A stretch of DNA of 59,820 nt from an uncultured Bacteroidia bacterium (lineage in GTDB: Bacteria > Bacteroidota > Bacteroidia > Bacteroidales > Prolixibacteraceae), in assembly GCA_903905505.1 (NCBI GenBank), contig CAIVGL010000019.1, forward strand, positions 1 through 59,820, read 5' to 3'. Positions 42,896 through 47,071 of this stretch are shown piece after piece. The notes below the pieces were generated by a model. The model was not told the DNA's origin, ran no database searches, and worked only from the letters and a program-made list of their open reading frames with translations. Made by a program: the position numbers and the translations under genes. Numbering within the stretch: the first letter of the stretch is position 1; each line of letters starts with the position of its first letter.

Positions 42896-43813
42896 CTACT
42901 TAATATCGTGCAGATCGTAGGGTGTTTCCTGGTAGACGTAATAATTCAACCAATTCAGGAATAGCAAATTTGCATGTGATCTCCAGCTTAAGACCGGATT
43001 TTGAGATGGGTCATTGCCTTTGTAATAGTTATGTGGAAGTTCTATTGGAAGCCCTTTTTCAAAATCACGTTTGTATTCACGACCCAATGTTCCTCTCGAA
43101 TATTCAGGATGACCGGTGATAAAAAGCTGCTTTCCTTTGTTTGCCATCACCATATGAACGCCTGCTTGTTCGGAATAGGAGATCAATTCGAGCTCTTTAA
43201 TTTTTCGAATATCTTCTGCTAAGATCTGAGTATGACGCGAGTGTGGTGCTTTAAAAATATCATCAAAACCTCGGAAAATTGGAAGTTTAGGATCTGAAAA
43301 AGAGTGCTCAAAGATCCCAAACATTTTCTTATCCAATGGATATTTCTCAACACCAAAAAAATGATGCAGCCCTGCCTGAGCACCCCAACAGATAAACATC
43401 GTTGAAGTGACATGGTTTTTCGTCCAATCAAAAATCTTGCAGATCTCATTCCAATAGTCAACCTCTTCGAATGGAAGATGCTCCACTGGGGCACCCGTGA
43501 TAATCATACCATCGTATTTGTTCTCTTTAATCTCTGAAAAAGTATGGTAGAAGGTATTGAGATGGTCTTTGGAGGTATTTTTTGAGATATGCCCCTCAAT
43601 CTGAAGAAAATCAATCTCGATCTGAATGGGTGAATTTGAAAGTAACCTCAACAAGTCGGTCTCGGTGGCAATCTTCAACGGCATTAGATTGAGAATAATT
43701 AGCTTTAATGGACGAATATCCTGATGTGCAGCTTGGGTTTCATTCATCACAAAGATGTTCTCTTTGCTTAGAAGATCAATTGCAGGAAGGCCGTCTGGCA
43801 GATTTAATGGCAT
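42896..43813 (-). CDS. metA: Homoserine O-acetyltransferase, MetA type
   Basis: MetA acylates homoserine, the first committed step of methionine synthesis. The 305-residue protein has the catalytic Cys142 in MFICWGAQAG, with HEHSF-like and GHPEYSRGTL segments for the rest of the active site. Residue 111 is Glu (in GAPVEHLPF), where E. coli MetA has Gly. Work on MetA proteins ties Glu111 to acetyl-CoA use, so the product is predicted to be O-acetylhomoserine even though automatic annotation usually says succinyltransferase. That fits metY immediately upstream. The gene is separated from metY by a terminator hairpin and an inverted repeat. Confidence 0.88.
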   Translation of the reverse strand: MPLNLPDGLPAIDLLSKENIFVMNETQAAHQDIRPLKLIILNLMPLKIATETDLLRLLSNSPIQIEIDFLQIEGHISKNTSKDHLNTFYHTFSEIKENKYDGMIITGAPVEHLPFEEVDYWNEICKIFDWTKNHVTSTMFICWGAQAGLHHFFGVEKYPLDKKMFGIFEHSFSDPKLPIFRGFDDIFKAPHSRHTQILAEDIRKIKELELISYSEQAGVHMVMANKGKQLFITGHPEYSRGTLGREYKRDFEKGLPIELPHNYYKGNDPSQNPVLSWRSHANLLFLNWLNYYVYQETPYDLHDIK

Positions 43814-43916: not shown

Positions 43917-45236
<1,320 letters not shown>

Positions 45237-45317
45237 CTATTTATTTTATTTCAAATTCTAATTTATAATTCTGAATCTAGCTGTAAGAGTATAACTCAAT
45301 TCCCTAGCTCTTTGTTT

Positions 45318-45348
45318 AAAAAGTTTATGACATCGAGAGTTGTCGATG
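45318..45348 (-). promoter_or_regulatory. Distal hairpin in the metY leader, possible terminator
   Basis: CATCGA (45331-45336) pairs with TCGATG (45343-45348). On the minus strand five T (45318-45322) follow 8 bases later. Its left arm, CTTCA plus CATCGA, can also pair in part with TGAAG near the first hairpin, so alternative folds are possible. It lies about 100 bases upstream of metY. Confidence 0.4.
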
Positions 45349-45389
45349 AAGTTGTATTTAATTTTCACAGATAATTTTGATTTTGAGAT

Positions 45390-45401
45390 GCTCAATTGAG
45401 C
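45390..45401. repeat. Perfect 12-base palindrome in the metY leader
   Basis: GCTCAATTGAGC reads the same on both strands. It may be a small hairpin (4-bp stem, AATT loop) in the RNA or a protein-binding site in the DNA. Confidence 0.4.
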
Positions 45402-45411
45402 TGTTGGTAAA

Positions 45412-45444
45412 AGCCTTCAAACAGGGGTAGCCCGCAAGAAGGCT
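45412..45444 (-). promoter_or_regulatory. Hairpin overlapping the leader stop codon (attenuator candidate)
   Basis: On the minus strand AGCCTTC (45444-45438) pairs with GAAGGCT (45418-45412), followed by TTTTACC; an inner GGG/CCC can stack. The left arm starts inside the TAG stop of the leader ORF, so a ribosome at the stop would melt it. A second AGCCTT (45510-45505) inside the leader ORF can compete for the same GAAGGCT. Confidence 0.6.
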
Positions 45445-45556
45445 ATCGCATGCACATGGTCATTTGGCGCATCATCTTTGAGGAACAAGCAAAAGAAGAA
45501 GAACAAGGCTGTTCTCCCCGTGTAAGACCCACACTATTTTTGTTTATTCTTTTCAT
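45443..45556 (-). CDS. Met-rich leader peptide upstream of metY (37 aa)
   Basis: A short ORF (ATG at 45556-45554, TAG at 45445-45443) of 37 residues. It begins MKRINKNS, contains Cys at 18 and 24 in the middle, and ends MMRQMTMCMR: five Met and one Cys in the last ten codons. It starts 35 bases after a consensus promoter and ends at a hairpin, 227 bases before metY. Met is a rare residue, so this cluster ahead of a methionine-synthesis gene is what a translated attenuator would need to sense charged tRNA-Met (and perhaps tRNA-Cys). No known riboswitch motif (such as SAM-I) was seen in this leader. Translation is not proved; an internal ATG at 45475 would give only the Met-rich end. Confidence 0.65.
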   Translation of the reverse strand: MKRINKNSVGLTRGEQPCSSSFACSSKMMRQMTMCMR

Positions 45557-45591
45557 GCTACTAAATCACCTTTTTATTGCTAAATGAATCG

Positions 45592-45623
45592 CAAACATAA
45601 CGAGGGTAAACTAGAATTCCAAA
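45592..45623 (-). promoter_or_regulatory. Bacteroidota-type promoter of the metY leader
   Basis: On the minus strand TTTG (45623-45620) and TATGTTTG (45599-45592) are separated by 20 bases: both boxes of the -33/-7 consensus match exactly. Transcription should start near 45585, giving a leader of about 370 bases before metY and about 30 before the leader ORF. Confidence 0.7.
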
Positions 45624-45737: not shown

Positions 45738-46136
45738 TTAAAGTTTTGCCTGTCGTTCGATTCGGATTAAAAAAGAATCAGCAATTGTTTTTCCGCGGTG
45801 CTTAGCCCTTTCTGCAATTATTCCTTCAAATTGACGATCGACAGTTTGGCACCAAATATCCAGCCAACGGTTAAAATGAAGTTCGGTAAGGTTCATATGA
45901 AAATGAATTGGCACAGGATTACCGACATAGCTAGGCCGACGTAGAAGAACCGTTGTCCAAAAGCGATAAAGAATCTGATGATGATTGTACCATCGACCCT
46001 TTAAATGAGCATTAAAAATTGGTCCAATCAGGTTATCTTTCTGAACAGCTGTATAAAACTGATCAATTAAAAGCTCAATATCGGTTGTATTTACAAGGTC
46101 ATGTTTCATAATTCGGCTATTGAGTTCAAATTTCAT
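45738..46136 (-). CDS. Group III truncated hemoglobin
   Basis: A 132-residue globin of the short 2-on-2 type. IELLIDQFYTAVQKDNLIGPIFN, then a W.HH..LYRFWTTVLL segment, YVGNPVPIHFHMNLTELHFNRWLDIW and VDRQFEGIIAERAKHRG match group III truncated hemoglobins; the proximal His is the one in ELHFNRW. The role (oxygen, NO or peroxide chemistry) is unknown for this group. The start is uncertain: ATG at 46136 is used here; ATG at 46109 would begin right at the first helix (MKHDLVNTTDIELL), and a TTG at 46157 is less likely. About 115 bases separate it from the metY promoter. Confidence 0.8.
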   Translation of the reverse strand: MKFELNSRIMKHDLVNTTDIELLIDQFYTAVQKDNLIGPIFNAHLKGRWYNHHQILYRFWTTVLLRRPSYVGNPVPIHFHMNLTELHFNRWLDIWCQTVDRQFEGIIAERAKHRGKTIADSFLIRIERQAKL

Positions 46137-46237
46137 AAATTTATCGGTATCAATCAAATTATGAAGGATTATATTTGATGAATATTTAAAGATTAAACTT
46201 TTTAAAATTGGAGTAATTAATAAGCAACCTGTCGAAT

Positions 46238-47071
46238 ATGATTATTGATGATATTAATGGAACCGTAGAGCTATCAAATGGGGTGAAGATGCCCTATTTC
46301 GGATTGGGTGTATTTAAAACCAAGGATGGCGAAGAGGTCGAGAATGCTATAAAATGGGCCCTTGAAGCTGGGTATCGCCATATCGATACAGCCTCTATCT
46401 ATAACAATGAACATGGAGTTGGCAATGCCATTAAAGCAAGTGGCATCCCGCGAGAAGAGCTTTTCATTACGACCAAAATATGGAATGATCGACAACGCAA
46501 CCAAACCGTCCTTGAGGGTTTTGAGGAGAGTTTAAACCTTTTGCAAACCGATTACGTCGATCTATACTTGATTCATTGGCCTGTTAAAGAGCATTTTACT
46601 GAGTCGTGGAAAGTTCTCGAAGAGATATACCATTCAGGAAGAGCCAGAGCCATTGGAGTGAGCAATTTCCTAGAACATCATCTGAGAGAACTATTACCTA
46701 CAGCTGAAATCATGCCCATGGTGAATCAGGTGGAGTGTCATCCCTATCTTGTTCAGCAATCGCTAATCGATTTCTGTAAATCGTACGACATCGTCTATGA
46801 GGCTTGGAGCCCAATTATGCGGGGCAAGGTGAATGAACTACCCCTATTTATCAAGCTAGCAGAAAAATACCAAAAATCACCCGTTCAGATCGTCTTGCGA
46901 TGGGATCTGCAGAAAGGGATTGTCACCATACCTAAGTCTGTTCAACGAGAACGGATCATTCACAATGCCAATATTTTTGATTTTACTTTGACTGGTCAAG
47001 ATATGGATCTCATTGATGCCTTAGATCGAGATGAGCATTTTGGGGCGCACCCCGACACATTTGATTTTTAA
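46238..47071 (+). CDS. Aldo/keto reductase
   Basis: A 277-residue NAD(P)H-dependent oxidoreductase of the AKR TIM-barrel family. The catalytic tetrad is visible: Asp50 and Tyr55 (HIDTASIYNNE), Lys80 (FITTKIW) and His113 (LYLIHWPV). AIGVSNFL, QVECHPYL and the cofactor loop VTIPKSVQRERI near 230 are also family motifs. It resembles the AKR5 group (2,5-diketo-gluconate reductase-like), but the substrate cannot be assigned. It is divergent from the truncated hemoglobin gene and is followed by pepF after 57 bases. Confidence 0.88.
   Translation: MIIDDINGTVELSNGVKMPYFGLGVFKTKDGEEVENAIKWALEAGYRHIDTASIYNNEHGVGNAIKASGIPREELFITTKIWNDRQRNQTVLEGFEESLNLLQTDYVDLYLIHWPVKEHFTESWKVLEEIYHSGRARAIGVSNFLEHHLRELLPTAEIMPMVNQVECHPYLVQQSLIDFCKSYDIVYEAWSPIMRGKVNELPLFIKLAEKYQKSPVQIVLRWDLQKGIVTIPKSVQRERIIHNANIFDFTLTGQDMDLIDALDRDEHFGAHPDTFDF

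Follow-up and report, generated by a model that had tools for sequence, protein, structure and literature searches.

Ribosome-mediated attenuation by leader peptides is well known for trp, his, leu, thr, and ilv, and the control of methionine genes is mostly ascribed to riboswitches, T-boxes, and repressors. Polycysteine ORFs of mycobacteria are reportedly the subject of one published study. The excerpted text on metL of Streptomyces lividans proposes a methionine leader before metNIQ, 29 amino acids long and with Met and Cys near its end (PMC8079986), and the available part of a study of Actinobacteria describes cysteine leader peptides with sulfur amino acid codons in runs close to the stop and without conserved terminator hairpins, suggesting Rho-dependent termination as a possibility (PMC1262725). 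The exchange of one sensor for another, specifically of a T-box or riboswitch for a leader peptide or the reverse, is documented for other genes in the excerpt of a further source (PMC2965389), and leader-like short ORFs are described in Bacteroides 5′ UTRs, in passages that do not name the genes treated here (PMC7366714). Among the matches listed in the open PMC literature, outside of which most subscription papers lie, none reports leaders coded for Met or Cys in Bacteroidota, or a SAM-I riboswitch followed by a leader peptide there. As far as these excerpts go, the nearest described case is the single Met leader predicted in Streptomyces.

The leader described here lies upstream of metY in a window (the whole stretch of DNA analysed) of 59,820 nucleotides from the draft genome of an uncultured member of the Prolixibacteraceae (G000, 2.9 Mb, 97.3% complete). 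Its parts and the two genes that follow are:

45592–45623, minus strand: promoter of Bacteroidota type, TTTG (45623–45620), 20 nt, TATGTTTG (45599–45592); from a pattern match and recurrence in alignment A3.
45443–45556, minus strand: leader ORF of 37 codons, MKRINKNSVGLTRGEQPCSSSFACSSKMMRQMTMCMR, ending MMRQMTMCMR-UAG; frame, Met codons of the tail, and UAG conserved in the family.
45496–45519, minus strand: hairpin A within the ORF, GGGGAGAACA-GCCT-TGTTCTTCTT, with a T-rich tail; from pairing and covariation.
45412–45444, minus strand: hairpin B over the stop codon, AGCCTTC (45444–45438) / GAAGGCT (45418–45412); from covariation and a match to model R1.
45390–45401, minus strand: hairpin C, GCTC-AATT-GAGC; paired in all 14 rows with letters, gapped in G024.
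45216–45411, minus strand: rest of the leader up to metY, including the hairpin CATCGA/TCGATG (45348–45331); lysC sits here in relatives.
43917–45215, minus strand: metY, O-acetylhomoserine aminocarboxypropyltransferase; NCBIfam TIGR01326, 667.8 bits, cut-off 495.1.
42896–43813, minus strand: metA, homoserine O-acetyltransferase, the next gene; NCBIfam NF047918, 488.4 bits, cut-off 460.5.

The leader ORF starts 35 nt past the −7 box, carries Met at codons 28, 29, 32, 34, and 36, and ends ∼200 nt before metY. The left arm of hairpin B begins inside the stop codon, on the G of UAG; the inner stem is GCGGG/CCTGT, and the right arm is followed by TTTTACC. The features that an earlier, sequence-only reading of the window had listed, namely the promoter boxes, the 37-codon ORF with its Met-rich end, the stop-codon hairpin, an upstream AGCCTT, and two further hairpins, are all present. 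The TTTG/TATGTTTG box type is that of Bacteroidota promoters; the pattern matched four times in the window against 1.18 expected and is by itself poor evidence. Both boxes stood at the same place across the 15 rows of alignment A3, with slight deviations in two of them (TTAG for TTTG in G005, and TAAGTTTG in G012). Upstream of the promoter, and likewise on the minus strand, lies a 139-aa ORF without an NCBIfam match (45738–46157), which ends ∼110 nt before the promoter begins. The gene across the promoter in G010, presumably an aldo-keto reductase by its appearance, is plainly that at 46238–47071 of the window, and the locus is thus syntenic.

Five Met codons among the last ten set the leader apart from all other ORFs of 10–100 codons in the window (1351 in total), the runners-up having three. 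The leader was read in 18 genomes, comprising 14 of the genus, G024 (a member of the genus nearest by metY identity), G021, G031, and G023, and the frame and UAG stop were retained in all 18, UAG being favored by the search patterns. In the 13 genus rows of 37 codons, Met occupied positions 34 and 36 in all 13, position 29 in 12, and position 32 in nine; the leader of G015 has a deletion of exactly 6 nt, or two codons. Of 68 collected leaders, one of which is a chance pattern match in L070, 67 had Met at position −4 counted back from the stop, 55 at −9, and 44 at −6; none had Met at −1, −3, or −5, and all 68 had it at −2, where the search pattern demanded it. The first members were found by patterns that required M-[S/T]-M-x-M and, in a later round, UAG, and the position counts thus arise partly by selection. 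The near-constant Met at −4 accords with the conservation of the ORF and its Met codons in relatives that the sequence-only reading had named as a check. Inspection of 52 further loci, seven of them training records again, found 49 that end in M-x-M-[R/Q]-UAG with the hairpin; the exceptions were L246 (G320), in which the UAG is missing and the frame continues for five more codons to another stop; L239, with Met-Cys at its end; and L249 (G035), which ends M-x-M-L and had no start within the stretch examined.

This regular ending bears on the idea of an arrest peptide, in which the nascent chain (M-x-M-R/Q-stop) would sense Met or SAM within the ribosome and stall it at the stop codon, as the nascent chain of TnaC does with tryptophan. 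Such a peptide would suit the fixed spacing of Met in the 68 leaders, which form no free run, as well as the Arg or Gln before the stop in 49 of the 52 inspected loci, a residue that the search pattern also favored, and a ribosome held at the stop codon would cover hairpin B. Outside of the Met tail, however, the peptide is poorly conserved between genera, and leaders further removed look different (MNMMCMMMRMLLRMSK in L026, runs of Cys in others) in a manner that fits codon counting better, and we consider arrest by the peptide itself unlikely.

Whether the leader is a coding frame is judged better from its openness than from substitution rates. Of the 68 leaders, 67 kept the frame open over 25 codons or more, vs. 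36 and 22 for the other two frames, and an in-frame ATG start was present in 66 (none was found for L203). Substitution rates gave a mild coding signature: within the genus, the median dN/dS was 0.56, with values below 1 in 70 of 77 usable pairs (of 78), and the three codon positions held 21, 23, and 25 variable columns. Conservation of the Met codons cannot be separated from conservation of the bases, because ATG has no synonym, and the bases ATGCGATAGCCTTC are strongly conserved, as they would be in a structured RNA that is not translated (a protein site or an unlisted riboswitch) and in which the ATG triplets were incidental. The open frame, the ATG starts, and the two-codon deletion in G015 all speak against such an RNA, as do the presence of simple hairpins only and the lack of any Rfam match at the gathering score in the window (SAM-I, T-box, SAM-II, SAM/SAH, and others), leaving it hardly credible.

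The 56-nt stretch containing hairpin B had a folding energy of −17.4 kcal/mol (z −2.59). Across 27 aligned sequences, 87.3% of the cells pair and seven of 13 pairs changed on both sides; the covariation score was 0.234, compared with 0.112 for shuffled alignments, none of 500 shuffles scored as high, and slid versions reached 0.101 at most, in agreement with the covarying stems that the sequence-only reading had proposed to look for in relatives. The base stem, GCCUUC/GAAGGC, is almost fixed, and changes in the inner stem are compensated. In 67 of 68 family folds, five or more pairs form a stem that starts at the last base of the stop codon, or one or two bases later, and when the whole leader was folded freely to minimum energy, hairpin B was present in 17 of 18 genomes, being absent in G021. 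Similar stems built of other bases were seen farther afield. In another family (G182, L154), the stem GCUUCUUC/GAAGAAGC (UAG-CUUCUUC/GAAGAAGC) follows MCMR; its row is included in alignment A2, from which L073, with a row identical to that of G031, was omitted. Sphingobacterium leaders that end RMR (L115, L116, L126, and L145) have a GUCGUC/GACGAC stem (UAG-UCGUC/GACGA).

A covariance model of the last leader codons and the stop-codon hairpin (R1), built from the 27 sequences, matched the window at 45413–45469 (E = 2.0e-14). In the family set, R1 matched 101 of 120 genomes at E ≤ 0.1; at E ≤ 1e-3, it matched 94 of 120, each at a single locus; excluding the training genomes (25 of the 94), it was found in 69 of 95 other family genomes at E ≤ 1e-3. 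Seven family genomes had weak matches only, and 19 of the 120 had none. Of the 344 genomes other than G000 in a phylum sample, none matched at E ≤ 1e-3, the best value being 0.00335. Two of the 19 family genomes that R1 did not match carry a different Met-rich ORF before metY, specifically MNNRIHTVSFRCMMPMGMMMRMLSRMSK in L044 (G020), read from an inner start of the ORF, and MNNRIENITSFCFMNMMCMMMRMLLRMSK in L026 (G032). Hairpins A and C are conserved more narrowly than hairpin B; in the genus and G024, 95% of the cells of hairpin A are paired and three pairs changed on both sides, and this hairpin may be a pause site for RNA polymerase.

From comparison of these leaders, it is probable that the leader serves as a methionine sensor, read by the ribosome, for metY, or for lysC-metY in relatives. 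When Met-tRNA is scarce, the ribosome would stall at the terminal Met codons with its footprint over the left arm, so that hairpin B could not form and expression of metY would continue; a ribosome with Met −2 in its A site would, at the ordinary footprint size, cover that arm. When methionine is plentiful, the ribosome would end at UAG and leave, hairpin B would fold, and transcription would end early, most likely by Rho, given the lack of a conserved U-tract and the G-poor RNA behind the hairpin. For the feedback to have the right sign, the closed hairpin B must reduce expression, and the means by which it does so is the weak point of the mechanism. The comparison supports the main point of the sequence-only reading, that stalling at Met codons acts through RNA folding on metY, and does not support its terminator and antiterminator detail, as described below.

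That detail held that hairpin B and the TTTT behind it form a terminator, with the upstream AGCCTT as the competing strand. Among 18 species, a TTTT directly after the right arm was found only in the three closest, G000, G004, and G007; in other leaders, TTCATC, ACATC, CCAGC, ACCTC, ATTCC, and similar sequences come after the right arm, and most family members read have no T-run behind hairpin B. The upstream AGCCTT proved to be the loop of the conserved hairpin A, and with the ribosome footprint masked, no alternative partner of the right arm was common to the 18 species in folding without pseudoknots or co-transcriptional folding. A classical attenuator, in which hairpin B is an intrinsic terminator and AGCCTT pairs with the right arm as antiterminator, is favored by the TTTT of three genomes but not by most of the family members read, which lack the T-run, nor by the masked folding, which gave no conserved competing pairing. 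Hairpin A, within the ORF, was listed as terminator-like by a consensus scan that was unable to list hairpin B, the stem of which is interrupted, and at a Sphingobacterium locus (L127) the Met codons contain, by eye, the left arm of a hairpin that a T-run follows, both of which would suit such an attenuator. Against it, terminator-like hairpins of ≤ −8 kcal/mol after 48 SAM-type leaders numbered six, vs. three after mononucleotide shuffling, no clear excess in a scan that is strict and undercounts (it missed L127, and its stop coordinate was off by one base). We regard a classical attenuator as quite improbable. In Thermophagus xiamenensis (L121), a Met leader without SAM-I has the arms GTTGACGCA/TGCGTCAAC and a TTTTTTT run further on, and may be a more classical attenuator.

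The composition of the RNA downstream of hairpin B is unusual. C exceeded G in 66 of 68 regions, compared with 209 of 358 control upstream regions, and this arises through low G rather than raised C (C 0.179 and G 0.083, vs. 0.185 and 0.161 in controls). The difference is small in the window itself (C 0.152, G 0.112), and after Cys-type leaders C exceeded G in 40 of 41 regions (C 0.251, G 0.161). RNA so poor in G leaves room for Rho loading, and its composition hints weakly that Rho may act after hairpin B. Hairpin B might alternatively act on translation or RNA stability, such that a stalled ribosome alters access to the lysC or metY start or protects the mRNA. The lack of a conserved terminator agrees with this, as does a complementarity, noticed by eye in L073 and L079, between bases at the lysC start (GAAGGCTATG) and the leader (AUAGCCUUC). 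The complementarity was noticed in just two of 15 loci, however, and metY is ∼200 nt distant in the window, and an effect of this kind is doubtful.

The sequence-only reading treated metY as the natural first gene behind the leader, yet in most relatives lysC comes first, the order being leader, lysC, metY. Within the 18 genomes, the leader precedes an aspartokinase-like gene (called lysC here) in all but G000, G004, and G007, where it directly precedes metY, and metY follows lysC on the same contig in every lysC-bearing genome except G006, where the contig ends. The operon lysC is absent from G000, G004, and G007, in which only paralogs with 29–33% identity were found. Both leader and hairpin were retained directly before metY after this loss; that the leader outlives the first gene and stays with metY argues for a role tied to the operon and not to lysC alone. 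In G005, the lysC of the met operon (L259, G005:C83:7634-9013) is reported with one in-frame TAA; three other species of the genus have lost lysC. Additionally, the aspartokinase-like protein in Draconibacterium-like genomes (L218–L222, L072, and others) begins VIRLGGSHIGN instead of VVKFGGSNL, and the protein of this type behind the leader is possibly a relative without kinase activity.

To place the leader among other metY loci, 79 were fetched by similarity; these are the nearest to the query and not evenly sampled, and L069, where the contig starts inside metY, was excluded throughout. SAM-I (RF00162) was found by cmscan of all 79 at 60 loci, a count made up of 18 loci and 42 others that were also matched by regular expression. 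At 57 of the 60, an ORF of 20–70 codons starts 3–25 nt (median 10) behind the aptamer, compared with 284 of 3000 random same-strand positions, and at least three Cys or Met codons fall within the last 14 codons of the ORF at 48 of the 60, compared with 19 of 3000 random positions. At least three Cys codons are found there at 41 of the 60 SAM-I loci. In this sample, SAM-I is thus usually followed by a short ORF in which codons for sulfur amino acids abound, and MEKGTKPTQLLLFSTLADQLPVISHAHTCATICCSRMCMCCCCC of Pontibacter virosus (L102) is an example of the Cys type. Poly-Cys leaders behind SAM-I and before metY occur in Pedobacter, Mucilaginibacter, Hymenobacter, Pontibacter, and relatives (L080–L147, e.g., L102, L138, and L147). 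A stop-codon hairpin as a trait of all leaders that follow SAM-I was considered and set aside, being no commoner there (nine of 57) than in shuffles (156 of 1140).

Repeats of one codon in the 79 loci, counted as at least four identical codons in the last 14 on the sense strand, were formed by TGT at 18 loci, ATG at 15, and TGC at seven, followed by AAA at four; on the antisense strand, ATG formed none, and AGT, GAT, and GTA formed none at any of the 79 loci. One of the 15 ATG loci, L140, is probably spurious; its Met match lies ∼940 nt upstream, and its riboswitch is followed directly by an ORF rich in Cys. Met-rich leaders were present at 10 of 16 loci without SAM-I vs. five of 60 with it (Fisher p = 1.6e-5, uncorrected for kinship), a comparison that omits the loci with short upstream sequence (L068, L076, and L081) and counts the probably spurious L140 among the five. 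Eight of the 10 belong to or closely resemble one family. In G000, under stricter filters, no SAM-I match was found anywhere in the 97.3% complete genome. Prolixibacter bellariivorans (L071, the same as L223) and G298 (L227) have both the riboswitch and a Met leader, and plausibly represent intermediates. At three loci (L157, L168, and L172), a gene start presumably of metH follows the SAM-I aptamer within ∼20 nt, a distance resembling that from aptamer to leader ATG at other loci, which fits translational control by the aptamer.

The leader can be placed next to a broader group of Bacteroidota leaders coded for Cys or Met, the majority of them directly behind SAM-I, and in G000 it appears, from these comparisons, to take the Met-sensing role that SAM-I has at most of the sampled Bacteroidota metY loci. 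We tentatively propose, as an idea somewhat short of probable, that many Bacteroidota metY genes carry an RNA device with two inputs, in which SAM-I gates translation of the leader instead of that of the gene and the Cys or Met codons form a second gate, and that the riboswitch was lost in the lineage of the window, leaving the Met leader with its stop-codon hairpin as the sole Met sensor, a swap of sensors on one promoter. If true, these loci would show one sensor replacing another at the same gene, and would raise the question of how attenuation works without conserved terminator hairpins. Leader peptides would, moreover, be one of the main routes by which Bacteroidota control sulfur amino acids, given the family-wide Met leader and the Cys ORFs behind SAM-I at 41 of 60 metY loci.

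Among known systems, SAM-I precedes metY or lysC-metY in related Bacteroidota and is without a match in the window or in G000. The Bacteroid-trp motif (RF01692), interpreted as a Trp leader, is a candidate cis-regulatory RNA of Bacteroidetes, with no Rfam match in the window. The metL leader resembles the present one in having no typical Rho-independent terminator, but it belongs to Actinobacteria and to methionine import, and was predicted from RNA-seq in one species; in the excerpted text, no conserved counterpart of the stop-codon hairpin is described for it (PMC8079986). The actinobacterial Cys leaders are of another phylum and other genes, and the available part of their description includes neither a SAM riboswitch in front nor a Met type (PMC1262725). 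Unlike the classical amino acid attenuators, the leader described here uses Met codons, has its hairpin over the stop, and yielded no conserved terminator or antiterminator. Like them, it is a short ORF behind a promoter with codons of the pathway's amino acid beside a hairpin that would lie within the footprint of a stalled ribosome: a conserved ORF stands between promoter and biosynthetic gene, codons for the product lie near its end, and, within the family, a conserved hairpin is placed where the ribosome could mask it.
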